This document shows positions 5,463 through 47,543 of a DNA stretch of 64,000 nt, in pieces. Source of the DNA: Megamonas hypermegale (GTDB lineage Bacteria; Bacillota; Negativicutes; Selenomonadales; Selenomonadaceae). How positions within the stretch are numbered: position 1 is the stretch's first letter; each line of letters opens with the position of its first letter. The notes under the pieces were generated by a model. It searched no databases, was not told the DNA's origin, and was given only the letters and a program-made list of their open reading frames with translations. The translations under genes and the position numbers were made by a program. The stretch is from NCBI GenBank assembly GCA_002314325.1, contig DCFC01000013.1, positions 1-64,000 on the forward strand, read 5' to 3'.

Positions 5463-6671
5463 CTATTTTTGGATGTACTGTTCAAAAATCTGAGCGGCAT
5501 CTTTTTTTGTTTTATCTGTTATATGCAGATAGATTTTTCTAGTTGTTTCATCATCACTATGTCCCAGTCGTTCCTGTATAACTTCTAACGGTACACCGAC
5601 TTCAGCAAGCAGACTTACATGTGTGTGACGAAAAAGATGCGCATGTAAATGCTTTTTAAAAATTTTATGATTATCTATTACACGGAACACTGCGGATATT
5701 GCATTCGGAATTACAGGCAACTCATAATCTTTTGGTTTACAATACTTACTAAATACATAATCTTCTTTGTCTCTCTTGTTTTGTGTCCCGTATTTTATTC
5801 TTGTTTCCAACTGCACTTTTTTCCATTTCTTCAATATTGAAATAAGCGTATCTCCTACTATTATTTTTCGTATGCTACTTTCATTTTTCGGCGTTGACTG
5901 CCGTTTATAGTTATTATAGCTTTCCGCATACATACTAGAATTAATACTTATGGTTTTATTATCAAAATCAATATCTTGCCATATCAAAGCACATGCTTCA
6001 CCGACACGCATTCCTGTATAAGCCAAAGTGGCACACATAGGATAAACATATGCCGTCTTATAACTCTTCTTGTAATATTCACTGTAATTTTTAACGTAAT
6101 CCAAGAAATCCCGTAACTCTTCTTTTGTCAAATAAAGCTGTGATACTTCTTTTCTTTTTGGCGGTATAGAAGGTAATACAACTGATATTGTAGGATTTGA
6201 ACGAATTACATTATATTTAACGGCATATGAAAATATTTTTCTTATTATTTGGTGCATATTCGTAACAGTTAAATATTGTTTATCTTTGGCATATTCATCT
6301 ATAAACTGCTGATACTGATATAGCGTAATATCCTTCATTTTTTTGTAACGGAAAAATTTGTTAAACGTTCCGATAGTATATCGATATCGAACTTGTGTGG
6401 GTAACTTTATATTCAATTTATAACTGTCAAACCATTCTTCTACAAACTCGCCAAATGTAATATCGGATTGAATAATATTTTCACCTAAAAGCAACTTGTT
6501 CAAAATCGGCTGCGCGGCGGCACGTGCCTCTTTAGCGGATTTAAAACCACTTTTAGTAACCTGTTTTCGCTTTCCGGTAATCGGGTCACGACCGGCTTCG
6601 ATACGATAGGTATATGTTACACCTTTTTTGGCTTCTCTTTTGTAAACTAAGATTTTCCCTTGTGTTGCCAT
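5463..6671 (-). CDS. int: Phage integrase, tyrosine recombinase
   Basis: A 402-residue site-specific recombinase that would integrate the phage at the kinase gene. The N-terminal ~60 residues form an AP2-like arm-binding domain (YTYRIEAGRDPITGKRKQ). A SAM-like core-binding domain follows, and the C-terminal catalytic domain shows TGMRVGEACAL (first Arg), HLFRHTHVS (H-x-x-R), LGHSD and the nucleophile in KIYLHI. The start is supported by AGGTGAT upstream. It faces attL, the usual place for an integrase. A second tyrosine recombinase at 43791 is unrelated in position and probably does a different job. Confidence 0.95.
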   Translation of the reverse strand: MATQGKILVYKREAKKGVTYTYRIEAGRDPITGKRKQVTKSGFKSAKEARAAAQPILNKLLLGENIIQSDITFGEFVEEWFDSYKLNIKLPTQVRYRYTIGTFNKFFRYKKMKDITLYQYQQFIDEYAKDKQYLTVTNMHQIIRKIFSYAVKYNVIRSNPTISVVLPSIPPKRKEVSQLYLTKEELRDFLDYVKNYSEYYKKSYKTAYVYPMCATLAYTGMRVGEACALIWQDIDFDNKTISINSSMYAESYNNYKRQSTPKNESSIRKIIVGDTLISILKKWKKVQLETRIKYGTQNKRDKEDYVFSKYCKPKDYELPVIPNAISAVFRVIDNHKIFKKHLHAHLFRHTHVSLLAEVGVPLEVIQERLGHSDDETTRKIYLHITDKTKKDAAQIFEQYIQK

Positions 6672-6881: not shown

Positions 6882-7259
6882 GTGCCTGATGAAATAAAGT
6901 ACAATGTTCTTTTTTATAGAAACGAACAAGGCGAAGAACCTGTCCGTGATTATTTAAACGAATTAGTGAAGAAAAAAGATAAAGATAGCAGAATAAAGCT
7001 AAATAAAATCAGAGATTATGTAAAGATTTTGCGTATCTATGGAACACGTGCCGGTGAACCATATGTTAAGCATATTGAAGGCGACATATGGGAGCTTAGA
7101 CCTTTGAGGGACAGAATATTTTTTGTAGCTTGGATAAACAACAGCTTTGTTCTACTGCACCAATTTATGAAGAAAACTCAGAAAACGCCTAAGAGAGAAA
7201 TAAAACAGGCACAAAAAGAATATGCCGACTTGCAGAAAAGAGGTTTGAATATAGATTAA
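6882..7259 (+). CDS. HigB/RelE-type toxin (Gp49-like family)
   Basis: A protein of about 125 residues of the RelE superfamily, Gp49/HigB branch, whose members act as ribosome-dependent mRNA interferases. Typical elements are VRDYLNEL, the central basic helix, the [18 protein letters not shown] strand pair and [15 protein letters not shown] near the C-terminus. GTG 6882 is preferred because GGAGG lies at the right distance; ATG 6867 would place the SD inside the gene. The antitoxin gene follows after 49 bp, toxin first as in higBA. Confidence 0.82.
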
Positions 7260-7308
7260 ATATTTTAAAATGAGGTAGTGTGCATTCAAGTAAGGAGATT
7301 ATGAGATT

Positions 7309-7617
7309 ATGAAAAGGGTAAATACAGCTATTGGAACAAGTTGGGACGATTTTGAAAAAGAAGTTTTCACACAGGATGAAATCAGGGCAAGCGATTTACG
7401 TGTTGCCCTGATAGGTGAAATGATTAAGGCAAGAGAGGAAAAAGGAATAAGCCAGAAGAAACTCGAAGAGCTGTCTGGAGTAAAACAACCGGTTATTGCA
7501 AGAATGGAAAAAGGAAAAACGATACCGCAAATTGAAACTGTTTTAAAAGTTTTGGGTGCCTTAGGTAAAACACTTGCTATTGTTCCACTCGAACCTGTAG
7601 AAACAAAAGTGAAATAA
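7309..7617 (+). CDS. HigA-type antitoxin, XRE family
   Basis: A 102-residue DNA-binding protein with an HTH at about residues 40-90 (EEKGISQKKLEELSGVKQPVIARMEKGKTIPQIETVLKVLGALG). It should neutralise the HigB-like toxin and repress their shared promoter. AAGGAG precedes ATG 7309. A bidirectional terminator follows. Confidence 0.85.
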   Translation: MKRVNTAIGTSWDDFEKEVFTQDEIRASDLRVALIGEMIKAREEKGISQKKLEELSGVKQPVIARMEKGKTIPQIETVLKVLGALGKTLAIVPLEPVETKVK

Positions 7618-8901: not shown

Positions 8902-9174
8902 TTAATCCTTATTTATTTTATTTATGCCTTTTTTTACTAAGTCAACAGAAGCATTTGTTATTTTTTTATTTAAACTTGGTTCGTTTCCTTCTGGGCTATC
9001 CCATAATTTATAAGCTCCACAAATTGGGCATTGTTTTGACTTAAAAAAAGCATAATATATAGCATAAATAAAAGCCCACATAAATCCTGTTAAAAGGCAT
9101 AAGACTATAAATGGTATCCATGCAACTTTCTTTGTAGGTTTCACCATTCTATTACAATATGGACAATATTTCAT
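8902..9174 (-). CDS. Membrane protein with split zinc ribbon
   Basis: A 90-residue protein with CPYC at the N-terminus, a hydrophobic segment at residues ~19-45 and CPIC after it. The two CxxC knuckles flank the membrane helices, as in TM2-like zinc-ribbon proteins. It lies 4 bp from the 8118 gene, probably in one operand of transcription with it. Function unknown. Confidence 0.65.
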   Translation of the reverse strand: MKYCPYCNRMVKPTKKVAWIPFIVLCLLTGFMWAFIYAIYYAFFKSKQCPICGAYKLWDSPEGNEPSLNKKITNASVDLVKKGINKINKD

Positions 9175-30676: not shown

Positions 30677-31193
30677 ACAGAAAAAAATTTTACATGATAT
30701 TGTAGCGGAAATTTTGGGATTACCCAAAAACCGAGTAATATACGCATATCAAAATGCGCCACAGATTATAGATACATTTGCCGTAATGCGTTTTTATGCG
30801 TATCGGGAAGAAGTACCGACAGAAATAATAAACAGTGGTGAACCCGGTATAGAAAAACTGATAGCGCATAATAATTTGACGCTTGAAATACAGATATTTA
30901 CTAAAATCGGCACTGATTTAGATGCCTGCGTAATGTTGAATAACCTGCTTAACTGCTTAGATAAACATACGGTGATGAGCCAGCTGGATAATGCAGGTAT
31001 CGTTATAGTTCAGCACGAAGCGGTGCAGGATATTTCGAAACTGGTGGATAAAACGGCATTTCAGACCCGTGCCAGCGTTGATATAACTATTAGATTTACA
31101 CCGACATATCTTGATGATGTAGGCTATATCGCAAGCGTAAAAGTAAACGGCGATACAGGAAGTAAATTACCGATTGATATAGAAACGGAGTGA
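30666..31193 (+). CDS. Neck/tail-terminator-like protein
   Basis: About 175 residues (NRVIYAYQNAPQIIDTFAVMRFYAYREEVPTEI, VSQLDNAGIVIV-like strands). Position before the sheath gene suggests a tail terminator or neck protein. GTG 30666 follows AGAGGTGG by six bases and is preferred over ATG 30645. Confidence 0.65.
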   Translation: MTHEQKKILHDIVAEILGLPKNRVIYAYQNAPQIIDTFAVMRFYAYREEVPTEIINSGEPGIEKLIAHNNLTLEIQIFTKIGTDLDACVMLNNLLNCLDKHTVMSQLDNAGIVIVQHEAVQDISKLVDKTAFQTRASVDITIRFTPTYLDDVGYIASVKVNGDTGSKLPIDIETE

Positions 31194-31197
31194 AAAC

Positions 31198-32559
31198 ATG
31201 GCTAATATAGACAGAATTGTTAATGTACAAATAAGCCTTAATACTAACGGAGTTAGTAAAGAAGGCTTTTCAACCATGCTTGTTGTCGGCACACATGCCA
31301 ATACTTTAAATCGTGTCGTTACGTATACAAATATAAACGATTTAACAAATGATGGTTTTTCTACTGACAACCCTATTTATAAAGCTGTTTCGGCGGCATT
31401 CTCCCAGACGCCGCGGCCGAGACAGGTGAAAGTAGGTCGCAGACAGGTTGAAGAAGTAAATTTAAGTGTAAACAATGTAAAAGACAATACGGATTATACC
31501 ATTACTGTATCCAGCAAAGACACTGACGGCACTGTTGATGAAGAAGCCTATAAATACAACAGTCAGACAAGTGCAACGGCAACAAAAATTATCGAAGGTC
31601 TGCAAGCATTAATGGCAAGTGATACTGCCGTAACCGCTACTGCATCCGGTGAAAAACTGCAACTTACTGCCAAATCCGGTAAGTCTTTTGCTATTAAAAT
31701 ATCCAGTAATTTATCTGCTGAACTTACTGAACCGACAGAAGAAATAGCTGATACCATGAGTGCTATAATGGCCAGCGACAGCGATTTTTACGGCATTGTT
31801 CTTGCAAGCAGAGATAAAGACGATATTATGGCAATGGCTGAATGGGTAGAAACACAAATAAAACTTTTCGGCACATCTACGGCAGAACAGGGAGCAAAAG
31901 ACAGTGAAACAGATACGGACCTGTTGTCTATGCTTAAAGCTAAAAATTATTACCGCACTTTTGCCTTTTACCATGAACTTGCTAACAATGAATATCTTGA
32001 AGCGGGAATAATGGCAAGATGTTTCGCTATTGAACCAGGCGGTGAAAACTGGGCGAATAAAGTTTTATCCGGTTTAACTGCCGACACTCTGACAGAAACG
32101 GAATATCTTGCAGTATCTGGCAAGAACGGCAATACATTTGAAACATTCCGCAATAAGAGCATTACGCAAAACGGCAAAGTCGCCGGTGATGAATGGATTG
32201 ATGTAATCCGTTTCCGCGACTGGCTTCAGGAAGAGATTACAATCAACGTGTTCAATCTTTTAATCAATTCTGACAAGGTACCATATACTGATGCCGGTAT
32301 CGCTTTAATCGAAAATCAAATTAGGCAGGCTCTTTTGCTCGGTCAGCGTCGTGGCGGCATTGCACCGACGGAGTACGACGAGGACAACAATGAAAACTTA
32401 GGTTTTAGCATAGAAATGCCGCTGGCTGCTAATATTCCGGCAAATACAAAGGCTCAAAGATTGCTGGAAGATGTGAAATTCACAGCGCGTTTAGCAGGTG
32501 CTATTAATGTTGTGGAAATTACAGGTTCGTTCACGTATGAAAATCTCATCAATGAATAA
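31198..32559 (+). CDS. Tail sheath protein, DUF3383
   Basis: A 453-residue contractile sheath subunit of the DUF3383 family (MANIDRIVNVQISLNTNGVSKEGFSTMLVVG, DSDFYGIVLASRDKDDIMAMAEWVE, RRGGIAPTEYDEDNNENLGFSIEMP). It forms the contractile outer tube around the tube protein encoded next. Confidence 0.93.
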   Translation: MANIDRIVNVQISLNTNGVSKEGFSTMLVVGTHANTLNRVVTYTNINDLTNDGFSTDNPIYKAVSAAFSQTPRPRQVKVGRRQVEEVNLSVNNVKDNTDYTITVSSKDTDGTVDEEAYKYNSQTSATATKIIEGLQALMASDTAVTATASGEKLQLTAKSGKSFAIKISSNLSAELTEPTEEIADTMSAIMASDSDFYGIVLASRDKDDIMAMAEWVETQIKLFGTSTAEQGAKDSETDTDLLSMLKAKNYYRTFAFYHELANNEYLEAGIMARCFAIEPGGENWANKVLSGLTADTLTETEYLAVSGKNGNTFETFRNKSITQNGKVAGDEWIDVIRFRDWLQEEITINVFNLLINSDKVPYTDAGIALIENQIRQALLLGQRRGGIAPTEYDEDNNENLGFSIEMPLAANIPANTKAQRLLEDVKFTARLAGAINVVEITGSFTYENLINE

Positions 32560-36800: not shown

Positions 36801-37686
36801 AGTGGCTTTTCCCGGTATTGGGTATGCTTTTTCCAATATCGATAACAGAAACGGCTTAAAAATCGAATTCGATATCAACAAGGATTTGACTAAGGAAACA
36901 AATAAATCTGTATTGAAAATCTATAATCTTAGTGATGAAACAAGAAAGGCATTAGAGCTATCTGATATTCTATGTGAAATTTACGCAGGATATGAAAAAA
37001 CAACGGGACCAGTAAAGATGTTTGTCGGCAATACGTTGCAGGTTCATACTAAAAACAGCGGTAAAGACGTTGTAACTGAGTTTCGACTTGCCGACGGCGG
37101 GACAGCTATCCGCGATTGTGAAATAAGCCTGTCTTTCCCGCCGAATACACCGGGAAATACGATAATAAACGCTATAGCCAGCAATATGGGACTTGCCGTA
37201 ATTTACGGACAGGGAGCAACATTCGGGACATTTACAAACGGTTATTCTTTTATCGGCAACGGCGCTGAGGCATTGTCTGAAATATGTTATGGCAGTGGTG
37301 TAAAATGGTCCATTCAAAACGGCGTTCTGCAAATAATTTTAGAAGAAGGCATATTGCAAAACAGAGGTGTAGTTTTTGCCAAAGACAGCGGGCTTATCGG
37401 TTCACCGGAACGGATTATAAAATCCAATCCAAAGCCGGATAAGGAAACGCCGAAACGTAAAAGAAAACGCAAAGAGAAAAAAGACCGCGCCGAAAAACAA
37501 GCAGGCTGGAAGATAAAAACATTATTAGCTCCGTCTGTTCTGCCGGGTGATGCCGTGAAAGTTGAAAGTGAAATTATTACCGGCTGGTTCCGTGTTGAAG
37601 CTGTAAAACACAGCGGCGATAGCATGGGGAATGATTGGACGAGTGAATTTGATTTGATAGAAAGGCTGACTTATGCAAACGGATAA
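36775..37686 (+). CDS. Baseplate hub protein
   Basis: A 303-residue hub (GLKIEFDINKDLTKETNKSVLKIYNLSDETRKALE, CEIYAGYEKTTGPVKMFVGNTL). A Lys/Arg-rich patch of ~25 residues at about 225-245 (KETPKRKRKRKEKKDRAEKQ) interrupts the C-terminal half and may be a flexible linker. It corresponds to the gp27/gpD-type hub. Confidence 0.8.
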   Translation: MQYWKRQYKVAFPGIGYAFSNIDNRNGLKIEFDINKDLTKETNKSVLKIYNLSDETRKALELSDILCEIYAGYEKTTGPVKMFVGNTLQVHTKNSGKDVVTEFRLADGGTAIRDCEISLSFPPNTPGNTIINAIASNMGLAVIYGQGATFGTFTNGYSFIGNGAEALSEICYGSGVKWSIQNGVLQIILEEGILQNRGVVFAKDSGLIGSPERIIKSNPKPDKETPKRKRKRKEKKDRAEKQAGWKIKTLLAPSVLPGDAVKVESEIITGWFRVEAVKHSGDSMGNDWTSEFDLIERLTYANG

Positions 37687-38269
37687 TGAAATAAAAGATG
37701 TAATCGGCGGTTGGATTGATAATAAGATAAACAATGTACATACCGCATTGCCCGGTAAAATTGTTGAGTACAATCCGGCAACAAACAGAGCCAGCGTCCA
37801 ACCGGTCGGAACGTATCAGACAGCGGATTATAGAGAACTTGCCTACCCTGTTATTTATAATGTGCCGGTACAGTTTCCAATCGGCATGGGTGGCAGTGCA
37901 GGGTGTACGTTTCCGTTAAGCACAGGAGACGGCTGTTTACTCATATTCGCCGAACGACAGACAGACAACTTTATAAGTCAAAACAATAATTCCGACGATA
38001 TACGCACGCACTCACTGAATGACGCACTATGTATTCCCGGATTATATACAGATGCTACGCAGAGTAATATTGAACACTCGAGCAGCGTCTGTTTGTTTAA
38101 TGGCGGTTCTATGGTTCAACTTACCGGTAGCGGATTTAGCGGCACGCTGGCAGACGGAACTACTTTTAATTTCGGCGGCGGTGATTTGACTGTAAACGGT
38201 ATAAGTCTTGTCCATCACACACACGGCAACGTCGAAAACGGTGGTGGAAATACGGGACAGCCACAGTAA
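37673..38269 (+). CDS. Gp138-type membrane-puncturing spike
   Basis: A 198-residue central spike. The N-terminal OB-like domain contains GKIVEYNPATNRASVQP and CLLIFAERQTDNF. The tail narrows through GGSMVQLTGSGFSGTLADGTTFNFGG to the tip HHTHGNVENGGGNTGQPQ, whose H-x-H is the usual iron-binding apex. It pierces the outer membrane on contraction, which fits a diderm host. Confidence 0.88.
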   Translation: MQTDNEIKDVIGGWIDNKINNVHTALPGKIVEYNPATNRASVQPVGTYQTADYRELAYPVIYNVPVQFPIGMGGSAGCTFPLSTGDGCLLIFAERQTDNFISQNNNSDDIRTHSLNDALCIPGLYTDATQSNIEHSSSVCLFNGGSMVQLTGSGFSGTLADGTTFNFGGGDLTVNGISLVHHTHGNVENGGGNTGQPQ

Positions 38270-38282
38270 AGAAGGTGATTTA

Positions 38283-38660
38283 TTGGCTTATGATATAGCA
38301 CTCAATATAGCATCTAATGATTTAGTTATAAAAAATAATGACTTGATTTTAATTGATAACGCTGAACGGGTGGCACAGCAGGTACTTATAACGCTTCGTT
38401 TCTGGTTCGGTGAATGGTTTTTAGATACACGGGAAGGCGTTCCATATCTTGAATATGTATTAGTTAAAAATCCGAACATGAGCCATATACGGCAGATTTT
38501 AACGGAAAAAATCCAGAGTGTTGAAGGTGTGAAAAGCATAGTATCGCTAGATTTTGATTTCAGGCGTGTTACTCGTGAACTGTATGTAGATTTTGAAATT
38601 GATACCGATTATGGACTAATTACAGAAAGGGCGGTGTTAGGATATGGCGGACGAGGTTAA
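38283..38660 (+). CDS. Baseplate wedge protein, gp25/DUF2634-like
   Basis: About 125 residues (DLVIKNNDLILIDNAERVAQQVLITLRFWFGEWFLDTREGVPYLEYVLVKNP). TTG 38283 follows AAGAAGGTG by five bases; a longer form from 38208 would run through the spike gene's end. Anchors the wedge with the J protein encoded next. Confidence 0.85.
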   Translation: MAYDIALNIASNDLVIKNNDLILIDNAERVAQQVLITLRFWFGEWFLDTREGVPYLEYVLVKNPNMSHIRQILTEKIQSVEGVKSIVSLDFDFRRVTRELYVDFEIDTDYGLITERAVLGYGGRG

Positions 38661-40077
38661 ATACGGATTAAGTCCTGAAGGATTTAAAAGAAAAAGACTG
38701 CCGGAAATAATAGACAGTCTGGTACAGCGTACAAGCGATAAACTGGGTATATCTATTCAATCCGGTGCCAATTCTATTTTCGGGCAACTGTACGGAATTA
38801 TCGGTTACGAACTTGCTGATATTTGGGAGCAGACGGAAAATGTCTATTATGCCATGTATCCTAATACGGCAACGGGAACATCTTTGACCAACGCCGCGGC
38901 ACTTACGGCAATAACACCGATAGAAGCGGAACGAACGGAAATAATCTGCTTGTGTACAGGAACTGACCAGACGCTTATTCCTTCAAACAGTCAAATTCAG
39001 GATAAGGATAGCAATACTTATACAAATAATGATGATGTATATATAGATAAAAATAACGCTTCTAAGGTTGAAATAACTATAGATACTATTACAACCGGTA
39101 CAACATACAGCTTGACAATTAATGGCCAAACACAGGACTATACTGCAAAATCGGAAGATGATATTTCCACTGTCTTGACAACTTTATACAGCGGTTTTTC
39201 TTTTAATGACATAAATTTTGATTTAACAAATAACATTCTTACAATATCTACGGCAGATGAAGAAAAAACCATGAAAATAAGTGTAAACAATTTAAAAATA
39301 CAGTCTGTTTCCACACCAATAAGTTTTTACTGTGATATTTACGGTTCCATAAACCCGGGAATAGGCACAGTGGACACGATAAATACGGCGATAAACGGCT
39401 GGGACAGCGTAAGCAATATAAAAAATATAGTAGGCAGAGACGCTGAAACAGATACAGAGCTTAGACAGCGCTGGTCGCAGTCCGTATACGCCAGAGCCAG
39501 CAACATGATAGAAGCAATACAGGCAAATGTATACAGACGTGTTGACGGTGTAACTTCCTGTTTAGTTACTGAAAATAATACAGACACAATAGACAGCGAC
39601 GGCCTTTTGCCGCACAGCATAAAAGTAATCGTTGAAGGTGGCGACGAACAGGAAATAGCTGAAACAATATATCAATATTCCTGTCGAGGCATAGATTTCA
39701 ATGGTGAAATAGAAAAAAGTGTGCGCGACAGCGCAGGTGTAACACACGTAATAAAATTTGCTAGACCAGTTGCTGTTAAAGTATGGCTAAAAATAGAAAT
39801 AACAAAAGACACTGAAACAGAATGGGGCAACAATAACATAAATGAAATAAGAGAGCTTATTTTAGAACAGACAAACAATATAACAGTCGGGCAGGATGTA
39901 ATTTTACAAAAATTTATAGGCACATTATATAACAATATACAAGGTATTGCATTTATTAGTATAACGGCATGTACCGGAGAGGTGGCAGGAGAATATAAGC
40001 AAGAAAATATAATAATAAAACCAACGGAGAAAGCCTCGTTTGATTTATCCAGAATTGAGGTGCAAATAAATGATTGA
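38644..40077 (+). CDS. Baseplate protein J
   Basis: A 477-residue baseplate J-like protein (LGISIQSGANSIFGQLYGIIGYELADIWEQTENVYYAMYPNTATGTSL, GRDAETDTELRQRWSQS). A ~100-residue insert near residues 130-220 has an Ig-like or strand-rich look and divides the usual J fold. It overlaps the following gene by 8 bp. Confidence 0.9.
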   Translation: MADEVKYGLSPEGFKRKRLPEIIDSLVQRTSDKLGISIQSGANSIFGQLYGIIGYELADIWEQTENVYYAMYPNTATGTSLTNAAALTAITPIEAERTEIICLCTGTDQTLIPSNSQIQDKDSNTYTNNDDVYIDKNNASKVEITIDTITTGTTYSLTINGQTQDYTAKSEDDISTVLTTLYSGFSFNDINFDLTNNILTISTADEEKTMKISVNNLKIQSVSTPISFYCDIYGSINPGIGTVDTINTAINGWDSVSNIKNIVGRDAETDTELRQRWSQSVYARASNMIEAIQANVYRRVDGVTSCLVTENNTDTIDSDGLLPHSIKVIVEGGDEQEIAETIYQYSCRGIDFNGEIEKSVRDSAGVTHVIKFARPVAVKVWLKIEITKDTETEWGNNNINEIRELILEQTNNITVGQDVILQKFIGTLYNNIQGIAFISITACTGEVAGEYKQENIIIKPTEKASFDLSRIEVQIND

Positions 40078-40723
40078 CCGATATGAACGTATGATAAAAC
40101 ATTTATTAGCACAGTTTTTTAACACTGAAATATTAAAAGCCATGTTTTATGCCGTATCTGAAGAGTTGGCAGAAATAGATGTTGCTCTTGATGATTTGCA
40201 AAACAAAAGATGGATTGATACTGGTGAAGGCGTGCAACTAGATGGTATCGGGCAAATTGTAAGCAGAGATAGAAATCTTACAAATACAATAGCACTGTCC
40301 TTTTTTGGCTTCGAGGGGCAGTTAAACACTAAAGGCTTTGGACAAGCAAGGTTTAAAAGTTATGATGAACCGTATTTAGCAAGCATGAAGTTATCTGATA
40401 CGGAATACAGAATGTTCTTATGGGCAAAGGTATTTAAAAATAATACTTTTGCTTACGGAAATGATACTTTGCGTTCTTTGCAATATATATTTAACACTAA
40501 AAATATATTAATTCAGAATGCCGGTAACGCAAAAATAAATATCGGTATCGGGAGAAAATTAACAGACAATGAAAAATTATTATTAGGACAAATGGAATTA
40601 TTCGTTAAGCCTGCCGGAGTAGGCTTAATTTTTTTGTCTGAATTTGAAGGATATGTATTTGGGTTTGAAGGTCAAATGTATGCTAAAGGATTTGGACAGG
40701 CTCCATTTGCTTCAGCTTTCTAA
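40070..40723 (+). CDS. Baseplate-to-fibre protein, DUF2612
   Basis: A 217-residue protein (QLDGIGQIVSRDR, FFGFEGQLNTKGFGQARFKSY, and a repeated FGFEGQMYAKGFGQAPF at the C-terminus). It corresponds to the protein that links baseplate J and tail fibre. The FGFEGQ motif occurs twice, ~120 residues apart. Confidence 0.78.
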   Translation: MIDRYERMIKHLLAQFFNTEILKAMFYAVSEELAEIDVALDDLQNKRWIDTGEGVQLDGIGQIVSRDRNLTNTIALSFFGFEGQLNTKGFGQARFKSYDEPYLASMKLSDTEYRMFLWAKVFKNNTFAYGNDTLRSLQYIFNTKNILIQNAGNAKINIGIGRKLTDNEKLLLGQMELFVKPAGVGLIFLSEFEGYVFGFEGQMYAKGFGQAPFASAF

Positions 40724-40741
40724 CAAAGGAGATGTTTTTTT

Positions 40742-41449
40742 ATGGCACAAGATTATAATAAAATATTTGCTTCTGGCGCGTCGTCCACTCAAGAGTGGAC
40801 GGATGAAAACTATTTGAAAGGATGGGGGTATTTAGGACAGACGCCGCCGCCATATCAGCTGTTTGACGCGCTGTTTAAACGACTGGATTTAAAAACTCAG
40901 GAGTTAAACTCAAATCAAAATAATATTGCTAATAATTATTTGCCATTGACAGGTGGAACAATGGATGGTTTACTTAGTCTTTTTGCCGGTTCTACGATAC
41001 CGACACCAGATGCAGGTGATAACAGCAAAAAAATAGTAAATTCCGAGTGGGTGCAAACGTGGGTTAAGAATTTTATAAATGCGCTAGATGGTAATTTACA
41101 AGTACAATGGAGTAGCAGCACATTCACCGTGCCAGCATTAGGCATTACCGGATTAATGGCACAAAACGGCTATATTAGTCTTGGTAAGCTGTTTGGCGGT
41201 CTAATTCTACAGTGGGGAATAGTAAATGTTTCTACGATTGTTCAAACATATTATGTTACGGGAACAAAGACGTTAGCCATTTCTTTTAAATCACCTTTTA
41301 TAGCCGTAGCAACACATAGAGGTGCAGGCTCAAGTACAACTGTAGTAAATAGACTTGATACTACAATAATAGGAGCAAGATTGGGAATGCCTGGAGAAAA
41401 ACCCATAAAATTACCGTGGGCTGCTCATTATATTGCTATAGGTATTTAA
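40742..41449 (+). CDS. Tail fibre with switchable receptor-binding tip
   Basis: A 235-residue fibre. Residues 1-156 are constant (DYNKIFASGASSTQEWTDENYLKGWGYLGQTPPPYQLFDALFKRLDL near the N-terminus; NNYLPLTGGTMDG in the middle). Residue 157 starts QWG, encoded by the recombination site at 41209-41218; the remaining 79 residues are a gp53-like C-terminal domain ending HYIAIGI. Seven other versions of that domain lie downstream at copies of the same site. AAAGGAG precedes ATG 40742. Confidence 0.9.
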   Translation: MAQDYNKIFASGASSTQEWTDENYLKGWGYLGQTPPPYQLFDALFKRLDLKTQELNSNQNNIANNYLPLTGGTMDGLLSLFAGSTIPTPDAGDNSKKIVNSEWVQTWVKNFINALDGNLQVQWSSSTFTVPALGITGLMAQNGYISLGKLFGGLILQWGIVNVSTIVQTYYVTGTKTLAISFKSPFIAVATHRGAGSSTTVVNRLDTTIIGARLGMPGEKPIKLPWAAHYIAIGI

Positions 41450-41704
41450 ATTATTATATCCAATGGCAATCCATAAAACATTTGTTACGCTTGTTCCTGG
41501 AACATAAGTATGTCCTGTTTCATAGTCTATTAGTATTTGTAGTCCATTGGCGTTGGCGTTTTGAATGTATGGAACTATTACGATATCCGGTATATCACCG
41601 CTGTTAATAGTGGCATTACTCCAAAGATAACCGGGCATTGTAATATTAAAAGGTACTTGGTATGGTGTAGCATCTATTCGCATACTCACATTATTTCCCC
41701 ACTG
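41411..41704 (-). CDS. Silent fibre tip cassette A
   Basis: Starting QWGNNVSMRIDATPYQVPFN, it gives 97 residues and passes the usual end WIAIGYN by 13 residues before its stop at 41411. Its last codons are antisense to the end of the expressed tip. It has no start of its own. Confidence 0.8.
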   Translation of the reverse strand, partial: QWGNNVSMRIDATPYQVPFNITMPGYLWSNATINSGDIPDIVIVPYIQNANANGLQILIDYETGHTYVPGTSVTNVLWIAIGYNNLNTYSNIMSSPR

Positions 41705-41717
41705 TCGAATACCTGAA

Positions 41718-41948
41718 CAGTGGGGATTTAACAATAATATAACAGGCGGGAGCGATGATTATGATATAACTTATCCAATATCTTTCTCTAATTTTTCCGT
41801 AATCATGTCTTTTCCATATAATAGTTCTAAAGGTGATTCCTACGATTTTTTTGGTGTTATAAAAGGAACAGAAACATTACAAGGATGTACGGTACATTTT
41901 TCTCAAGGCAGCGGAATGGGTATTTATTTTTTGGTAATAGGAAGTTAA
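41718..41948 (+). CDS. Silent fibre tip cassette B, direct orientation
   Basis: A 76-residue tip starting QWGFNNNITGGSDDYDIT and ending IYFLVIGS. It is the only silent cassette on the + strand, so it would need two inversions to be expressed. Its TAA overlaps the opposite-strand stop of cassette C. Confidence 0.8.
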   Translation, partial: QWGFNNNITGGSDDYDITYPISFSNFSVIMSFPYNSSKGDSYDFFGVIKGTETLQGCTVHFSQGSGMGIYFLVIGS

Positions 41949-42166
41949 TATCCAATAGCAAACCAGTCTACGGTATGAGTCCCGGTTGTATTTTCATCGT
42001 CTTTCCCTACTTCAAAAGAATTTAGAGAAATTTTACTAAAACCTAATGCATAATTAACAGTTCGAGCAGCGTGAGAACCAGTTATTTTGTAAAATGAAAT
42101 AAACGTTATCGGTAAGTTTTGTAATACGTATTTTGCGTTAGAAGGAATAGTTGATGTTCCCCACTG
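41945..42166 (-). CDS. Silent fibre tip cassette C
   Basis: A 73-residue tip starting QWGTSTIPSNAKYVLQNLPI and ending DWFAIGY. Confidence 0.8.
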   Translation of the reverse strand, partial: QWGTSTIPSNAKYVLQNLPITFISFYKITGSHAARTVNYALGFSKISLNSFEVGKDDENTTGTHTVDWFAIGY

Positions 42167-42167
42167 T

Positions 42168-42368
42168 TTATACACCAAAAACAATATAGCTACACGATGT
42201 ATCAGGATAATTATTGTTTAAATAAATGGTATTGGTTGTTAAATCTCGTATTGTTGTGCTACTTGTAGAACTAGCTCCGGGACCCTCCACCGCGACACCT
42301 CTAAACGGCTGTTTGGTAAAAGTAATAGGTAAAGATAAAACAACATTTGCACTACCGTTTCCCCACTG
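42168..42368 (-). CDS. Silent fibre tip cassette D
   Basis: A 66-residue tip starting QWGNGSANVVLSLPITFTK and ending YIVFGV. The stop codon lies one base from the next site. Confidence 0.8.
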   Translation of the reverse strand, partial: QWGNGSANVVLSLPITFTKQPFRGVAVEGPGASSTSSTTIRDLTTNTIYLNNNYPDTSCSYIVFGV

Positions 42369-42581
42369 TTACTTACCACAAGCATACCATCTAATTGAGT
42401 GAGCAGTCTCTGCAGGGTCTGATAATCCCGTAACAAAATTTTTGTTTGTTATGTTAGCTACCTTAGATGGAAAGTTCGACGATGAACTGCTTGCTAATAC
42501 AGAAAAAACACTAGTAAAAGTTATTGCGAATGTTACAGTAATATCTTTTTCTTGATTTATATTTAAAATACTTCCCCACTG
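42369..42581 (-). CDS. Silent fibre tip cassette E
   Basis: A 70-residue tip starting QWGSILNINQEKDITVTF and ending RWYACGK. The terminal motif is the most divergent. Confidence 0.75.
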   Translation of the reverse strand, partial: QWGSILNINQEKDITVTFAITFTSVFSVLASSSSSNFPSKVANITNKNFVTGLSDPAETAHSIRWYACGK

Positions 42582-42582
42582 T

Positions 42583-42801
42583 TTAAAAGCCCGCAGTTAA
42601 GTAATCTATTGTAAACGTACCAGAAATTGTATTAGTTTTGCGTACCGTCAGTTTTGTAAGATTTCCGACGTTTACGCCGAAACTATCATGCCCATCTAGT
42701 GCTATATGTGTGGCTGTTGCTCTATAAAACTGTGTATATGCCACGGCAAGTGTATTTTCACCGGTTAAATTTCCGGGCTGTATCTCAATACTTCCCCACT
42801 G
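42583..42801 (-). CDS. Silent fibre tip cassette F
   Basis: A 72-residue tip starting QWGSIEIQPGNLTGENTL and ending DYLTAGF. The site flank (TAAACAGTGGGGAAGTATT) is shared with cassette E apart from the third base upstream. Confidence 0.78.
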   Translation of the reverse strand, partial: QWGSIEIQPGNLTGENTLAVAYTQFYRATATHIALDGHDSFGVNVGNLTKLTVRKTNTISGTFTIDYLTAGF

Positions 42802-42802
42802 T

Positions 42803-43060
42803 TTAGCATCCAATAGCAAACCAATTAAAAGTAGGATTTGAATCTGGTCTTGTTCCGCCGACGTCATTAATGCCGCGACCTCTAGCTCTAGCTTGATAAA
42901 GTCCGATTAATCCTATACCAATCAAAGATTGAATTATATTACCACTGGTATTATCTACATTGAAAACATCTGTTGCAGTTATTATCCCTAGATTTTTAAA
43001 GGCAATCGGTAGAGAAAATAACGCATAATTATTACCAGCACATGTAGCTGTTCCCCACTG
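42803..43060 (-). CDS. Silent fibre tip cassette G
   Basis: An 85-residue tip starting QWGTATCAGNNYALFSLPI and ending NWFAIGC. It is the outermost cassette. Confidence 0.8.
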   Translation of the reverse strand, partial: QWGTATCAGNNYALFSLPIAFKNLGIITATDVFNVDNTSGNIIQSLIGIGLIGLYQARARGRGINDVGGTRPDSNPTFNWFAIGC

Positions 43061-43099
43061 TAAATAATGAATACATAATAAAAGAAAGGATTGATAAAA

Positions 43100-43516
43100 T
43101 TGATAACATATTTTTGTAAATTTAACGAAAACGGCGAGCGTGAGGCTTCCGTTCCGTCTACCATGTTGAATAATTATGGCGGTAAAGAAAAACTGATTTC
43201 TGATGGATATATTGAGATATCCGACGAAGATTACCAGTATTATGTAGGTAACAAAGGACAAGGCGACAATGGTACAGGCTATATCCGCGACAGTGCGACC
43301 GGTAAGCCGATTTCTGCGCCTGCTAGGGTAATTACATTAGAGGAACAGGCAAACGCGCTTAAATCAGAGTATGAAACTAACATTAAAGCAATCGATGAAG
43401 CAATTCAGATTGCAAAAAATAACGGCGATACTGAATATGTTGCTGAATTACAACAGGAACGACAAAATACATTAGATGAATATGCGACAAAACTGGAGGA
43501 ATTAAATAATGCTTAA
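43100..43516 (+). CDS. Tail-fibre-associated or assembly protein
   Basis: About 138 residues. The N-terminus (YFCKFNENGEREASVPSTMLNNYGGKEKLISDGYIEISDEDYQYYVG) resembles the start of small phage tail proteins placed after fibres. The C-terminal third is coiled-coil-like (AIDEAIQIAKNNGDTEYVAELQQERQNTLDEYATKLEEL). It begins outside the last inversion site, so it stays fixed. TTG 43100 has AAAGGA at nine bases. Confidence 0.62.
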   Translation: MITYFCKFNENGEREASVPSTMLNNYGGKEKLISDGYIEISDEDYQYYVGNKGQGDNGTGYIRDSATGKPISAPARVITLEEQANALKSEYETNIKAIDEAIQIAKNNGDTEYVAELQQERQNTLDEYATKLEELNNA

Positions 43517-43673
43517 ATTTTGTACTTTTTGTGGAAGAAAACTTGATGCAGAAGGCTTTTGCACTAATCCAAAATGTCCGGATTACAAGCGTAAGGAAAT
43601 TATACAAACAGAAAAAATTGCATTGGCAGAAAAAGCAAAAAGCACCGCTAATCCCAATAACGACAAGGGTTAA
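43509..43673 (+). CDS. Small zinc-ribbon phage protein
   Basis: A 54-residue ORF with FCTFCGRKLDAEGFCTNPKCPDY, a four-cysteine knuckle, then a polar tail. It overlaps the previous gene by 8 bp. Its 3' end lies in the following terminator. Confidence 0.58.
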   Translation: MLKFCTFCGRKLDAEGFCTNPKCPDYKRKEIIQTEKIALAEKAKSTANPNNDKG

Positions 43674-43686
43674 GAGGTGCTTTTAT
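43637..43686 (+). terminator. Terminator after the fibre module
   Basis: AAAAAGCACC and GGTGCTTTT form the base of a long interrupted hairpin, with TAATCCC/GGGTTA above it, followed by TTTTATT. Confidence 0.7.
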
Positions 43687-43790
43687 TATGCCAAAAATTA
43701 TATTACCGTATTTGTGCCGTGTTCCGCCTTAGAAAATAAAGGGATATGCACATTTTACGGAAAAATATTAACGCCGCATTAGTGCCGGAT

Positions 43791-44837
43791 TTAGTATTTA
43801 AAGACTATTAAATCCATTGCCTTTTTAAGCTGGTGCAGGTCTTTATGCGTGTAATGTTTTTCTGTTATGCTACTGCTGGCATGTCCTAGTATTCTTTTTA
43901 TTGCGGTCGGATTAGCATCCGCATTATTCAATAAACTTGCTAATGTATGTCTGCACTCGTGGGGCGTATGGCGTTTTATTTTCAAGTCCGCTAGTGTTCT
44001 ATCAAAACGAGTACGAAAACGGCTGTAATTAAGCCGTGCACCGCTACTATCCGTGGCAATGTATTTATTGTTTTCTGCTAACAGTTCTATCCAAAACAGC
44101 AATGTCTGCTTGTGTATCGGGATAATTCTATTTCTGCCGGCTTCCGTCTTACTTTCACGAATTATTAAATATCGCTGTCGGATTTTAATATCGGACCGTT
44201 CAATATTCAAAAATTCGCTGGGGCGTGTTCCTAACATCATATGCATTAAAATCATTTTTGCATATCGGTGTTCATCAGTAGCACGAAACAATTTATAAAT
44301 CTGCCGTGTGTTGAATATGGTTTTCTTATAGACTTTTTTATCTTTGTCTATATCAACATATCGGCTTATATCTCGTTCCGGTGGAATTATTTCATACTTG
44401 ACCGCATAATTGTACATGTGGTGCAAAACTTGCCGCGCCTTTTTCTGGGTGCTGTAACCTGCGCCGGTATCGTGAATATCTCGGATAGCAGCTTGCAAAT
44501 CTCCGATACGGATTTTGGCAAATTGCTTATCGTATAACCGTTTTAAATGGTTATATGCGGCAGTATAACTTTGCTGGGTATGCGGCTTAATGCGTGGGTA
44601 CAGATAGGCTTTAACTAAAGTAAATAACTCGGAAAATGTTATTTCAGACGGGGAGAACAACAACGGGTTTTTATTGTACTCACAAAGAAAAGCAAGCGCG
44701 CTTTCATAGTTGGCTTCATAGCCAATAACTTTCTGCCGTCCGTCAATCCATTTTCTTATTTCAAATGGTTTACGGCGATTGCCGGATTTCTTAGTAGTAG
44801 AGCCAAATCCATTCGGTAATTTTAATCTTTTATTCAA
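43791..44837 (-). CDS. Tyrosine recombinase, likely shufflase for the fibre cassettes
   Basis: A recombinase of about 348 residues. Catalytic motifs: MLGTRPSEFLNI (first Arg), a lysine strand (RESKTEAGRNRIIPI), HTPHECRHTLASLL (H-x-x-R), LGHASSSITEKHYTH (His and nucleophile Tyr). An AP2-like N-terminus and SAM-like domain precede them. It is distinct from the integrase and lies 730 bp from the last inversion site, as Rci does beside the R64 shufflon. TTG 44837 has AAAGGAG at ten bases; GTG 44846 is a longer option. Confidence 0.9.
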   Translation of the reverse strand: MNKRLKLPNGFGSTTKKSGNRRKPFEIRKWIDGRQKVIGYEANYESALAFLCEYNKNPLLFSPSEITFSELFTLVKAYLYPRIKPHTQQSYTAAYNHLKRLYDKQFAKIRIGDLQAAIRDIHDTGAGYSTQKKARQVLHHMYNYAVKYEIIPPERDISRYVDIDKDKKVYKKTIFNTRQIYKLFRATDEHRYAKMILMHMMLGTRPSEFLNIERSDIKIRQRYLIIRESKTEAGRNRIIPIHKQTLLFWIELLAENNKYIATDSSGARLNYSRFRTRFDRTLADLKIKRHTPHECRHTLASLLNNADANPTAIKRILGHASSSITEKHYTHKDLHQLKKAMDLIVFKY

Positions 44838-44846
44838 ATTAATCAC

Positions 44847-44873
44847 ACTCCTTTAATAGGAGTTTAAAGGAGT
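44847..44873. repeat. Inverted repeat holding both divergent ribosome binding sites
   Basis: ACTCCTTTA (44847-44855) and TAAAGGAGT (44865-44873) are exact complements; an inner AGGAGT (44858-44863) allows a competing stem. Each arm is the Shine-Dalgarno of one divergent gene. No room for promoters remains in the 30-40 bp gap. Confidence 0.7.
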
Positions 44874-44877
44874 ATCT

Positions 44878-45321
44878 ATGTATGAGCAAACAATTACTTT
44901 TATAAATTCCTTAGTTCCTACAAAACTTGAGACAATAGTGGGTGGAGGTGTTGCCCTTGTGGGTGTGATAATGCAGCATTTATTCGGAGCTTTTTCGGAA
45001 ACCTTCGAAACACTGCTAATCTTAATGGTGATTGATTATATAACCGGAATAAGTGCTGCATGTATAAATCCGAATATGCAACTGGACAGCAGGAAGTGCG
45101 GTACCGGTGCACTAAAAAAAGTCGTTATCCTTTTGCTGATATCGGCGACATATCGAATTGACCTGATAGGGCAGACAATGGCTAAAGACGTTGTTATGCT
45201 CTTTTTTATTGGGCGTGAAGGACTTAGTATCTTAGAAAACGCGGCTAATTGCGGACTGCCGATACCGCAGAAGCTAAAAGATACGCTAGCGCAGTTTACC
45301 GAGTTTAAGAAAAACCGCTAA
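44878..45321 (+). CDS. Phage holin (phage_holin_4 type)
   Basis: A 147-residue membrane protein with three or more hydrophobic segments (ETIVGGGVALVGVIMQHLF, TLLILMVIDYITGISAACI, VVILLLISATYRIDLIG) and the family sequence DSRKCGTGALKK. It would form lesions for release of the endolysin encoded 0.8 kb downstream. Confidence 0.85.
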   Translation: MYEQTITFINSLVPTKLETIVGGGVALVGVIMQHLFGAFSETFETLLILMVIDYITGISAACINPNMQLDSRKCGTGALKKVVILLLISATYRIDLIGQTMAKDVVMLFFIGREGLSILENAANCGLPIPQKLKDTLAQFTEFKKNR

Positions 45322-45642
45322 TGTTGACGAGGTGGCGCCAGTACGTCAATTACAAAATAGGCTGTTTTTGTAATTTGAGTATGAACTTTTTACAAAATAT
45401 CGGCTTTTTGTAATACGGTTGGTAATTGGTTGCTAATCGGTTGGTTATTTGGACAGTAAAACCTGCAAACCCTTGTTATTGCTGGATTTTTATCGGTTGG
45501 TAATTGGAAGGCTTTCGGCTTTTTTATCGGTTTTTTTGTCGGCTTTTTATCGGCTGTATTATAAAAAATTGGTGCTATTTTCCCACATAGGAAAAATGAT
45601 AAAAACTTGACTTTTTTTAGTAAAGGCAGTAGGAGAATACAA
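45322..45642 (+). other. Intergenic region with tandem hairpins after the holin
   Basis: No convincing gene. Two related hairpins stand at 45348-45375 (AATTACAAA/TTTGTAATT) and 45390-45413 (TTACAAA/TTTGTAA). The string CGGTTGGTAATTGG occurs twice (near 45416 and 45494), with shorter variants between. A 30-codon frame starting ATG 45321 (MLTRWRQYVNYKIG) ends in the second hairpin. The stretch looks like decayed sequence or a regulatory leader. Confidence 0.4.
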
Positions 45643-45858
45643 ATGACATTAGATGAAGCAATTAAACACTGCAAAGAAAAATCAAACGGTTGTTCCAAAT
45701 GCGCATATGAACATAAATTATTATATGAGTGGCTATCTGAACTAAAAGAACTTCGTGAAATAACTATACAGAAAGACAGAAAAACTGTATTAAATCCATT
45801 TCATGGCTTCACTGGTGTGTTCTGTGGATTTCAGAGAAAGACAGAAAAACTGTATTAA
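45643..45858 (+). CDS. Small phage protein with altered C-terminus
   Basis: A 71-residue ORF. Residues 1-40 (MTLDEAIKHCKEKSNGCSKC onward to WLSELKELRE) match a common small phage protein that normally ends near this point. The remaining residues are encoded by a 31-bp repeat and the stretch after it, so the original C-terminus has probably been replaced. AGGAG precedes ATG 45643. Confidence 0.6.
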   Translation: MTLDEAIKHCKEKSNGCSKCAYEHKLLYEWLSELKELREITIQKDRKTVLNPFHGFTGVFCGFQRKTEKLY

Positions 45859-45865
45859 ATCCATT
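45770..45865. repeat. Pair of exact 31-bp repeats with 34-bp spacer
   Basis: The 31 bases at 45770-45800 recur exactly at 45835-45865. The unit contains the dyad ACAG-AAAAA-CTGT. Repeat and spacer lengths match a one-spacer CRISPR array, but no cas gene is present and no further copy is seen. Confidence 0.75.
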
Positions 45866-45922
45866 AAGCAAAATGTTAAAAAAGCAAGGAATGAACAACC
45901 TAAATATTAGACTTAAGTAAGC

Positions 45923-46103
45923 AAATTTAAGTTAATTTAAGTTAATTTTAGTTAAAATTTAAGTTAATTTGCCTAAACGTGTCGAATTCGAGGAGTTTGC
46001 AAATAACCGGCAAATAAAAAAAGCCTTATAAATCAAGGCTTTAAGAGAAAATATCTTAATATATCATGATATTTAAGCAAATAAAATCGTGATATCAAGA
46101 TAT
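45923..46103. repeat. AT-rich repeats, hairpin and inverted repeat before the endolysin
   Basis: TTAAGTTAATTT-like units recur three to four times at 45923-45971. A hairpin AAGCCTT/AAGGCTT stands at 46021-46041, though few T follow it. An imperfect inverted repeat spans 46051-46103 (ATATCTT...GAT against ATCGTGATATCAAGATAT). The last could be a regulator site for the lysis genes. Confidence 0.4.
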
Positions 46104-46131
46104 TATTAAGATTTAGATAGGAGGTATGTAA

Positions 46132-46677
46132 ATGCTAAACGTTTTTATTAATCCGGGACATGATATGGACCTTGACCCCGGTGCATGCGCGAACGGTCTG
46201 CGTGAAGTTGATATCGCGCTGGCAATCGGGCAGGAAGTTAAAAATATTATGGACGGTATTTGCTACCCATGCCAGCTTATTCAGTCGGACAATTTAAATG
46301 GAGAAACACCGAGCAAGCCGAATGTCTGCGGCACCGCTAACGCATCCGGTGCAGATGTTTTCGTGTCTATTCACTGCAATAAAGTTAAAAACACATCCGC
46401 AAAAGGTACAGAAACGCTCATCTATAGCACAGGCGGCAAGGCGGAACTGCTGGCTAAATGTATTCAGTCGCAGATTGTTAATTCTTTGGGCACAGTGGAC
46501 CGTGGCGTTAAAGAACGTCCAGATTTATGTGTGCTCCGGGAAACGACTATGCCGGCGGTACTTGTAGAAACGGCGTTCATTTCAAACGAGGAGGATGCTT
46601 ATAAGCTACAACTGCGCCAGCGTGCTTTTGCGGCTGCGATTTCCAGAGGCATAACCGACTACGAAAAATTATTATAA
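46132..46677 (+). CDS. Endolysin, N-acetylmuramoyl-L-alanine amidase
   Basis: A 181-residue Amidase_3 enzyme that cuts the bond between muramic acid and L-alanine. Zinc ligands are visible in FINPGHDMDLDPGA (His, then Glu in LREVDIALAIG), VSIHCNK (His) and catalytic Glu in AVLVETAFISN. No signal peptide or wall-binding domain, so export needs the holin. AGGAGG precedes ATG 46132. Confidence 0.93.
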   Translation: MLNVFINPGHDMDLDPGACANGLREVDIALAIGQEVKNIMDGICYPCQLIQSDNLNGETPSKPNVCGTANASGADVFVSIHCNKVKNTSAKGTETLIYSTGGKAELLAKCIQSQIVNSLGTVDRGVKERPDLCVLRETTMPAVLVETAFISNEEDAYKLQLRQRAFAAAISRGITDYEKLL

Positions 46678-46693
46678 AAGGAGATAAAAAACT

Positions 46694-46978
46694 ATGACTT
46701 TAGAAGAAATTAAAAACGAAGTGTTAAATAACATTAAGGATTTCGTAACAAACGAAGTAAAAGACGTTGCTATGCGCTGGATTAAAAATACCGCGTTTCC
46801 ATATGTAAAAGAAGTGGCCACCGCGTTCATTGCGGAACTAAAAAACTCGGCGGCGGATGAAAAAGGCTGGGTGAAATTTCGCGACTTGATTTTTCTTCCG
46901 GTACTGATTAGCGGCGGCATTTGGATACTGGAAAAAGTTTTAAACATGTTAGCACCGGATACAGAAACAACAGAATAA
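46694..46978 (+). CDS. Small lysis-module membrane protein
   Basis: A 94-residue protein with a long amphipathic helix and one hydrophobic segment (LIFLPVLISGGIWILEKVL, ~67-85). Position after the endolysin suggests a second holin or lysis regulator. Function unproven. Confidence 0.6.
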   Translation: MTLEEIKNEVLNNIKDFVTNEVKDVAMRWIKNTAFPYVKEVATAFIAELKNSAADEKGWVKFRDLIFLPVLISGGIWILEKVLNMLAPDTETTE

Positions 46979-47432: not shown

Positions 47433-47543
47433 TTTTGTAATCAATCGACTAAAATAAAGCATATTCAAAAGTAAAAATAAACCTACTTTCTTTAAAAATA
47501 AGGCATAATAAACATAATAAAAATAATGTTTTTTCACTATGCA

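Follow-up and report, generated by a model that had tools for sequence, protein, structure and literature searches.

A candidate tail-fibre tip shufflon beside a tyrosine recombinase in a prophage of Megamonas hypermegale

The fibre gene, its site array and the adjacent recombinase

The DNA analysed here, which we refer to as the window, is a 64-kb stretch of Megamonas hypermegale contig DCFC01000013.1 that contains a prophage. The final tail gene of this prophage, an open reading frame (ORF) at 40742-41449 that encodes a fibre of 235 amino acids (aa), is followed by an array of silent alternative C-termini and by a tyrosine recombinase gene, an arrangement which we describe as a candidate tail-fibre shufflon. 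The fibre matched phrog_4209 (tail fibre), and a Gp53-like_C domain was found at its residues 149-234 (PF21882, 25.3 bits against a cut-off of 24.9). A scan of the window revealed eight exact copies of a 10-bp site, ACAGTGGGGA, at 41209-43061 and none elsewhere; a single further match, with one mismatch, was located at 30832. In dinucleotide shuffles (n = 100) there was a mean of 1.3 and a maximum of 5 matches with at most one mismatch, and 0/100 reached 9. The stalk, sites, tips (designated c1 to c8) and recombinase are arranged as follows.

40742..41209, + strand: constant tail-fibre stalk of 156 codons, ending KLFGGLIL; its final base is base 1 of site 1
41209..41218, + strand: site 1, stalk/tip border, exact ACAGTGGGGA
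41210..41449, + strand: c1, 79 aa, the only tip in frame with the stalk (ORF 40742-41449)
41411..41704, - strand: c2, silent tip, 97 aa, open frame from site 2
41696..41705, - strand: site 2, opens c2, exact ACAGTGGGGA
41717..41726, + strand: site 3, opens c3, head to head with site 2 across an 11-bp spacer, exact ACAGTGGGGA
41718..41948, + strand: c3, silent tip, 76 aa, open frame oriented like the fibre
41945..42166, - strand: c4, silent tip, 73 aa, open frame
42158..42167, - strand: site 4, opens c4, exact ACAGTGGGGA
42168..42368, - strand: c5, silent tip, 66 aa, open frame
42360..42369, - strand: site 5, opens c5, exact ACAGTGGGGA
42369..42581, - strand: c6, silent tip, 70 aa, open frame
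42573..42582, - strand: site 6, opens c6, exact ACAGTGGGGA
42583..42801, - strand: c7, silent tip, 72 aa, open frame
42793..42802, - strand: site 7, opens c7, exact ACAGTGGGGA
42803..43060, - strand: c8, silent tip, 85 aa, open frame
43052..43061, - strand: site 8, distal end of the array, opens c8, exact ACAGTGGGGA
43791..44846, - strand: tyrosine recombinase, 351 aa, between the array and the holin gene (PF00589, E 9e-23)

The sites that start at 41209 and 41717 are in the + orientation and those that start at 41705, 42167, 42369, 42582, 42802 and 43061 are in the - orientation. Each reads A-CAG-TGG-GGA, that is, the Gln-Trp-Gly (QWG) codons of the stalk/tip border, and all eight open QWG in one phase. 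The frames of c1 to c8 remain open for 79, 97, 76, 73, 66, 70, 72 and 85 residues, respectively. The site scan and the frames confirm the original prediction, made from the letters of this stretch, that eight copies each open a different C-terminus of 66-97 residues in the same QWG phase, and the site orientations agree with its count of six inverted tips among the seven silent ones. It had also stated that most tips end in an aromatic-x-A-x-G motif, which held narrowly, at 5/8 by eye (c1, c2, c4, c6 and c8; internal in c2). The frames of c5, c7 and c8 stop right at the next site, and the c6 stop codon has one base in common with site 5. The converging tails of c1 and c2 overlap by 39 bp and those of c3 and c4 by 4 bp. 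Additionally, c2 (41411-41704) extends about 14 residues beyond the ends of its relatives into the c1 tail, as though it were missing its original stop codon.

The predicted structure of the stalk end and c1 tip contained beta strands, with a mean predicted local distance difference test score (pLDDT) of 87. By sequence, the tip profile matched the putative tail fibre 4mtm (E 3e-12), R2 pyocin (E 1e-7) and the R1 pyocin fibre (E 5e-6); the pyocin matches fell at the C-termini of the R1/R2 fibres, which places the tips among the Gp53-like/R-pyocin-type distal fibre ends. This kinship with 4mtm and the R1/R2 fibre ends suggests that the tips may bind receptors. No relative of the fibre-end DNA was found in the phage collection.

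The recombinase gene at 43791-44846 lies just beyond the coordinates of the original prediction and was not named in it. Its product is the putative invertase of the shufflon. Residues R208, K233, H296, R299, H322 and Y332, which we take to be the tyrosine recombinase catalytic set, were invariant in an alignment of 15 rows. The predicted structure had a mean pLDDT of 77.5 and a predicted template modelling score (pTM) of 0.53, and modelled residues 16-59 formed three strands and a helix (pLDDT 70-80 for this block) ahead of the core-binding and catalytic domains. The top Foldseek matches to this model were Tn1549 Int and lambda Int, full-length lambda Int chains included. No Pfam family was named for residues 1-70, and the label "arm-type" for this region is therefore taken from the fold. 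A relative of the protein was identified in a Phascolarctobacterium integrase (53%).

Rearranged arrays and exchanged tips in relatives

Other arrays were sought by DNA alone, using two head-to-head sites as the pattern. This revealed 13 viral stretches, 12 of which were true arrays (one being the window's own record), and 30 genome stretches, three of which were true arrays. The remaining 27 genome matches and locus L026 were chance site pairs with no cassettes present and were set aside. A profile of the recombinase was then run against 15 records, namely the 14 remaining true arrays and L026, and 13/15 matched: nine at full length, one in two pieces and three truncated by a contig end next to the array. 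Neither a 4.2-kb contig nor L026 gave a match. The arrays lie on the 3' side of the recombinase, and the nearest site was 4-984 bases away in the window and the seven relatives measured. Family-wide scans detected the head-to-head pattern in 3/189 genomes (one being the starting genome) and in 1/196 (the starting genome), which indicates that this form of array is rare per genome. L088 has 14 cassettes, compared to eight in the window. The host taxa around the relatives included an Anaerovibrio metagenome-assembled genome (MAG) with an array, and fibres from Selenomonadaceae, Megamonas and Pectinatus; together with the Phascolarctobacterium integrase they point to the class Negativicutes.

The original prediction proposed that tips are switched by site-specific inversion and that homologous loci be compared for changes of orientation; such changes were found in L084/L085 and L094/L089. 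L084 and L085 were 96.6% and 91.8% identical on the two sides of the array and carried one common cassette in opposite orientations. With both loci read fibre-forward, 13582-13815 of L084 aligned in reverse (95% identity) to 10621-10388 of L085, and the edges of the block were at most 3 bases from a site and a stop codon. A second block was reversed between the same loci (98%). By their record numbers, L094 and L089 are prophages of the same IMG genome; a block of two cassettes that they have in common (88%) is inverted in one relative to the other. The L216 contig contained a two-tip array in both orientations: its first 95 bases are the exact reverse complement of 495-589, bases 4594-4688 are an exact repeat of 412-506, and both 95-bp repeats finish one base beyond a site. 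Within this one assembly, tip YGGA adjoined both the distal flank and the fibre, and tip LDTT adjoined the distal flank. Record 2558860135_000002 has 4,295 bases identical to L216. Tip switching by inversion is thus supported in relatives by the site-edged inversions, by both orientations in one assembly and by stalks with differing tips, to which we turn below.

Contradictory junctions formed through exact 95-bp repeats, as in L216, could serve as a searchable signature of active shufflons in public assemblies. An identical 227-bp segment (a cassette and the next site) was also seen in L087, read in reverse complement, at the fibre site at 9056 and at the distal site at 11120; it was set aside as proof, being a duplication or an assembly artefact.

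Comparison of the fibre with its 17 nearest other fibres showed that these had 71-99% of the window stalk and tips 18-44% identical to c1, the value of 44% belonging to a truncated tip. Among the tips of the fibres nearest to the window stalk, 3/136 pairs exceeded 50% identity. P0122 retained 99% of the stalk but its tip was only 34% identical to c1, and the switch fell at QWG. Silent tips of the window were found in frame elsewhere: c5 was 97% identical to the tip of P0126, c2 was 95% identical over 82 aa to that of P0137 (88% to P0187 and 77% to L089), and c6 was 71% identical to that of P0146. The P0126 and P0137 tips are attached to stalks related to that of the window. In other phages the N-terminal part of the stalk is fused to a different fibre module (PF07484, AGLPN type), as seen in P0140, P0141 and P0145, which were 75%, 76% and 67% identical to it over 112-117 aa.

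Conservation was counted over 19 loci with 108 cassettes, silent and expressed, one stray non-cassette match having been dropped. All but one of the cassettes (107/108) were open for at least 55 aa. Position 10 of the site, which was unconstrained by the 9-mer used for finding the loci, was A in 107/108, and the flanks carried little information except for a T at -3 (81/108) that is largely the T of a stop codon. An alignment of 85 of the 106 gathered tips showed Q1, W2 and G3 as the only invariant residues, with a mean column identity of 20%. ACAGTGGGGA was present in 0/6 array-less QWG frames from the family of the Anaerovibrio MAG (two of them short ORFs in L105; 3 kb around each checked for arrays). 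In these frames, which at six are few, CAA was used in 5/6 and the third base of the Gly codon was A, C or T; the site therefore looks conserved as DNA beyond the need of its three codons. Ten homologous cassette pairs that are silent in both phages and have a measurable synonymous rate (dS) gave ratios of non-synonymous to synonymous rate (dN/dS) of 0-0.70, two further pairs being saturated. Summed by hand, these ten pairs held about 88 synonymous and about 92 non-synonymous changes, which departs widely from the ratio of about 1:3 expected without selection. Additionally, the single-base site variants ACCGTGGGGA (P-W-G) and ACAGTGGGTA were seen in arrays (L092 at about 5670 and L085 at about 10150, loci reverse-complemented); these are possibly dead sites.

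Related recombinases beside other sites

An outward search with the recombinase gave 90 confirmed loci, the best 80 of which were kept. A tree was built from 100 sequences. Its 21 array-linked branch tips, L134 (an array of two fibre tips) and nine database proteins of unknown context formed one clade (support 0.96), outside of which were 69 related phage integrases with no array seen; L138 and L216 in this tree are one locus. A tight array detector found 21/22 array loci and missed L095, which has a broken 27-aa cassette. This detector needs three copies, and the two-tip loci L134, L138, L141, L214, L215 and L216 are therefore blank in it. A loose detector of repeated 9-mers rang in 38/67 array-less loci and was dropped.

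Several of the related recombinases were found beside arrays with other sites. L213 has four QWG tips behind ACAATGGGGA, a synonymous change present in 4/4 of its sites, and its recombinase is 89% identical to that of the window. Four VGE-type tips follow CTGTCGGGGA in L210, four TDE-type tips follow CCACCGATGA in L139 and two tips (QGGD) follow CAGGGCGGGGATA in L134. L274 has three VGE-type tips behind CTGTGGGAGA and a recombinase 37% identical to the window's that was outside the tree. Genome G053 encodes three of the arrays (L100, L213 and L274), each with a different site; beside a fourth related recombinase of this genome, G053:C1:1532056 (L275), at least three tips were found by neither detector, and the tight detector revealed no array of at least three tips in the relatives from this family (L272, L275-L280). 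Viral scans with P0054 and P0003 gave two loci at 30-31% and the window's own record, with no new array. L214 contains, at 6969-7408, two opposed QWG tips with a longer common junction (GCAGTGGGGAAAT and the preceding stalk end), and the recombinase profile had no match in the 14 kb of this locus examined.

Among named phages, 82 records matched the recombinase. Arawn, JD-Fnp2, phiHugo and phiRg519T2 were among the 30 matches listed, at 26-34% identity; their annotation places the recombinase gene close to genes for regulators or lysis, a position that would also suit an integrase. A fifth record carried no annotation.

We lean, by a little, towards a phage tyrosine-recombinase clade devoted to tail-fibre shufflons, in which the target site, instead of being one set attachment sequence, tracks the stalk/tip border codons of the fibre served. 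If the site does track these codons, recombinase specificity and coding sequence would co-evolve, with the purine-rich right half of the site as the common part. The differing sites beside related recombinases offer a natural set for studying specificity change while the site stays protein-coding, and the same set could teach how inversion comes to be favoured over deletion.

Interpretation and comparison with known systems

The prophage lies between two exact copies of a 25-bp direct repeat, one at 5356 and the other at 47543. It carries genes for terminase, portal, major head protein, tail sheath, tape measure and baseplate. Two of its features bear on what follows.

31198..32559, + strand: tail sheath (phrog_205, E 1e-119)
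5463..6671, - strand: second tyrosine recombinase, 402 aa, at the prophage left end (phrog_1, E 2e-83; 25-bp repeat 5356/47543)

The tail sheath gene indicates a contractile-tailed prophage. The second recombinase is likely the prophage integrase, outside the shufflon.

The best reading of the locus, in which we have high confidence, is a tail-fibre tip shufflon run by the adjacent tyrosine recombinase. The product of 43791-44846 likely inverts the DNA between two opposed sites, whereby the single stalk would acquire another tip. Tyrosine recombinases act as a tetramer, and here the tetramer would bring two inverted sites together, with strand exchange within the 10 bp. As every site holds the same three codons, exchange inside the site would restore the frame into the new tip. 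An inversion-only model of the eight sites had 13,440 reachable arrangements, with six silent tips one inversion away from the stalk and c3 two. We infer that the recombinase acts on these sites and that the tips determine the host receptor. Rci, the tyrosine recombinase of the R64 shufflon, favours inverted sites, and our guess is that a similar bias might spare the direct repeats here from deletion.

Several observations weigh against this reading. One arrangement is known for the window prophage: the only near-identical record, IMG/VR 3300003155_000423, is 100% identical through the array and probably represents the same DNA. At 10 bp the site is short, and most relatives were located through a site search, which by design guarantees that positions 1-9 are conserved; position 10 and the other-site arrays are exempt from this. 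The two states of L216 might in principle reflect two prophage copies. Clustering of the protein database at 90% conceals fibres that carry identical tips. In the 120 of 136 fibres listed, c7 and c4 were only 49% and 42% identical to the best fibre tips, and c3 and c8 had no match. The cassette pair that is in frame in L084 as well as in L085 had a dN/dS of 1.6 (1.5 synonymous versus 8.5 non-synonymous changes). Only 37/69 array-less integrases had at least 2.5 kb of sequence on the 3' side of the recombinase (46 had at least 500 bases), so the absence of an array was tested in about half of them, and the tight detector also rang in 3/69 (L205, L173 and L185), the signal in L205 coming from unrelated proteins. 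Decayed arrays exist as well; the recombinase and one cassette of L217 are frame-broken, and the L140 recombinase is in two pieces.

The decayed relatives, the single known arrangement and the approximately 14 additional residues of c2 would also suit a former shufflon that is now fixed, its silent tips being remnants. However, the eight frames and eight sites of the window are intact, its recombinase is full length, and in-frame tips elsewhere match c5 and c2 at 95-97% identity. We consider such a frozen array unlikely; it is a sub-case of the shufflon reading, and the odds of the two overlap.

Two other explanations do without the adjacent recombinase. The silent tips could be a passive reservoir that phages shuffle among themselves through homologous recombination or gene conversion, and some between-phage tip exchange must indeed happen, as the same tip families sit on diverged stalks. 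However, the sites share no more than 10 bp of sequence at the junction, the inverted blocks have their edges at sites, both orientations occur in one assembly and the arrays are adjoined by recombinases of one clade, all of which makes a passive store very improbable. Alternatively, the recombinase at 43791 could be another integrase or a passenger, with a host invertase encoded elsewhere working in trans. Trans-acting invertases are on record for other loci (PMC6109161), and the window has the second tyrosine recombinase at 5463-6671. Against this, the adjacent gene accompanies arrays across lineages and retains six catalytic-type residues, and the recombinases beside other-site arrays fall in the same clade; we give an invertase acting in trans hardly any credence.

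The shufflon reading invites comparison with several known systems. In the R64 shufflon, Rci carries out multiple inversion of C-terminal segments at short sites, namely the 19-bp sfx sites of PilV, a pilus protein of conjugative plasmids. The target in the window is instead a tail fibre with a Gp53-like C-terminal domain.

Known Rin phages are siphophages. The Rin shufflon of Bifidobacterium dnaJ2 prophages, which is run by a tyrosine recombinase and switches tips, has sites of 11 bp (TTCCCTAACCC) and appears in several orders in reads (PMC6109161), and the Eggerthella lenta clade 1 prophages have a Rin shufflon with the 8-bp site ttccgtat (PMC8778435). As in these accounts, the window has a constant N-terminus, several inverted and dissimilar C-termini, one short asymmetric site in both orientations before them, and an adjacent tyrosine recombinase (43791-44846) separate from the prophage integrase (5463-6671). 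Rearranged orders were found in its relatives, the window prophage itself having one known order. It differs from the Rin systems, as described, in its site, its fibre family (Gp53-like/pyocin-fibre tip), its contractile tail and its greater number of cassettes. Furthermore, the Rin recombinase is described there as lacking an N-terminal arm-type domain, whereas the modelled recombinase of the window has an extra N-terminal domain and is itself matched by lambda Int among other recombinases. The locus, compared with the Rin recombinase by description only, is for this reason not counted as a Rin member.

The haloviruses phiCh1, phiH1 and ChaoS9 carry a tyrosine recombinase, Int1, in an invertible fibre module (PMC6471424). 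According to the available part of that source, these myohaloviruses resemble the window prophage in their contractile tail, in the tyrosine recombinase within the module and in an inversion that alters the expressed fibre, as it is predicted to do here. They differ in having two inverted fibre genes around a central recombinase and archaeal hosts, and no short-cassette array is described in that part; the window has one stalk and a tip array, with the recombinase on the far side. Min, Cin, Gin and the FRphi gin shufflon of Enterobacter likewise switch a tail-fibre C-terminus, with serine recombinases (FRphi gin), and only one of the three FRphi tips permitted infection of the tested host, so that the choice of tip is decisive in that Gin system (PMC13418256). 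A scan of ten proteins around the array (37673-46978), to which the search for serine recombinases was confined, gave none, the PF00589 protein being the sole recombinase there.

The remark in the original prediction that no described tyrosine-recombinase shufflon of this kind was known for a contractile-tail fibre was too strong, as Rin (PMC6109161, PMC8778435) and the phiCh1-type Int1 (PMC6471424) precede it. Among the open PMC matches listed, which leave subscription journals and preprints outside, there was no multi-cassette tyrosine-recombinase shufflon in a contractile bacteriophage and none in Selenomonas. What is new here is the many cassettes, the lambda-Int-like recombinase, the site written in the stalk/tip codons and the other lineages; the kind itself is known. 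The arrays in an Anaerovibrio MAG and in uncultured Bacilli MAGs suggest that tyrosine-recombinase tip shufflons recur beyond two actinobacterial genera. The predicted switching would let the virus change the cells it grips, and the arrays list ready-made alternative tips, so that the receptor repertoire of a phage may be readable from sequence. Assemblies can break at arrays of this type, whose components are readily annotated as small genes and an extra integrase.

Elsewhere in the prophage, the 31-bp sequence AGAAAGACAGAAAAACTGTATTAAATCCATT is present twice at 45770-45865, between the holin and amidase genes, with starts 65 bp apart. This pair looks like a one-spacer CRISPR-like mini-array carried aboard the prophage.

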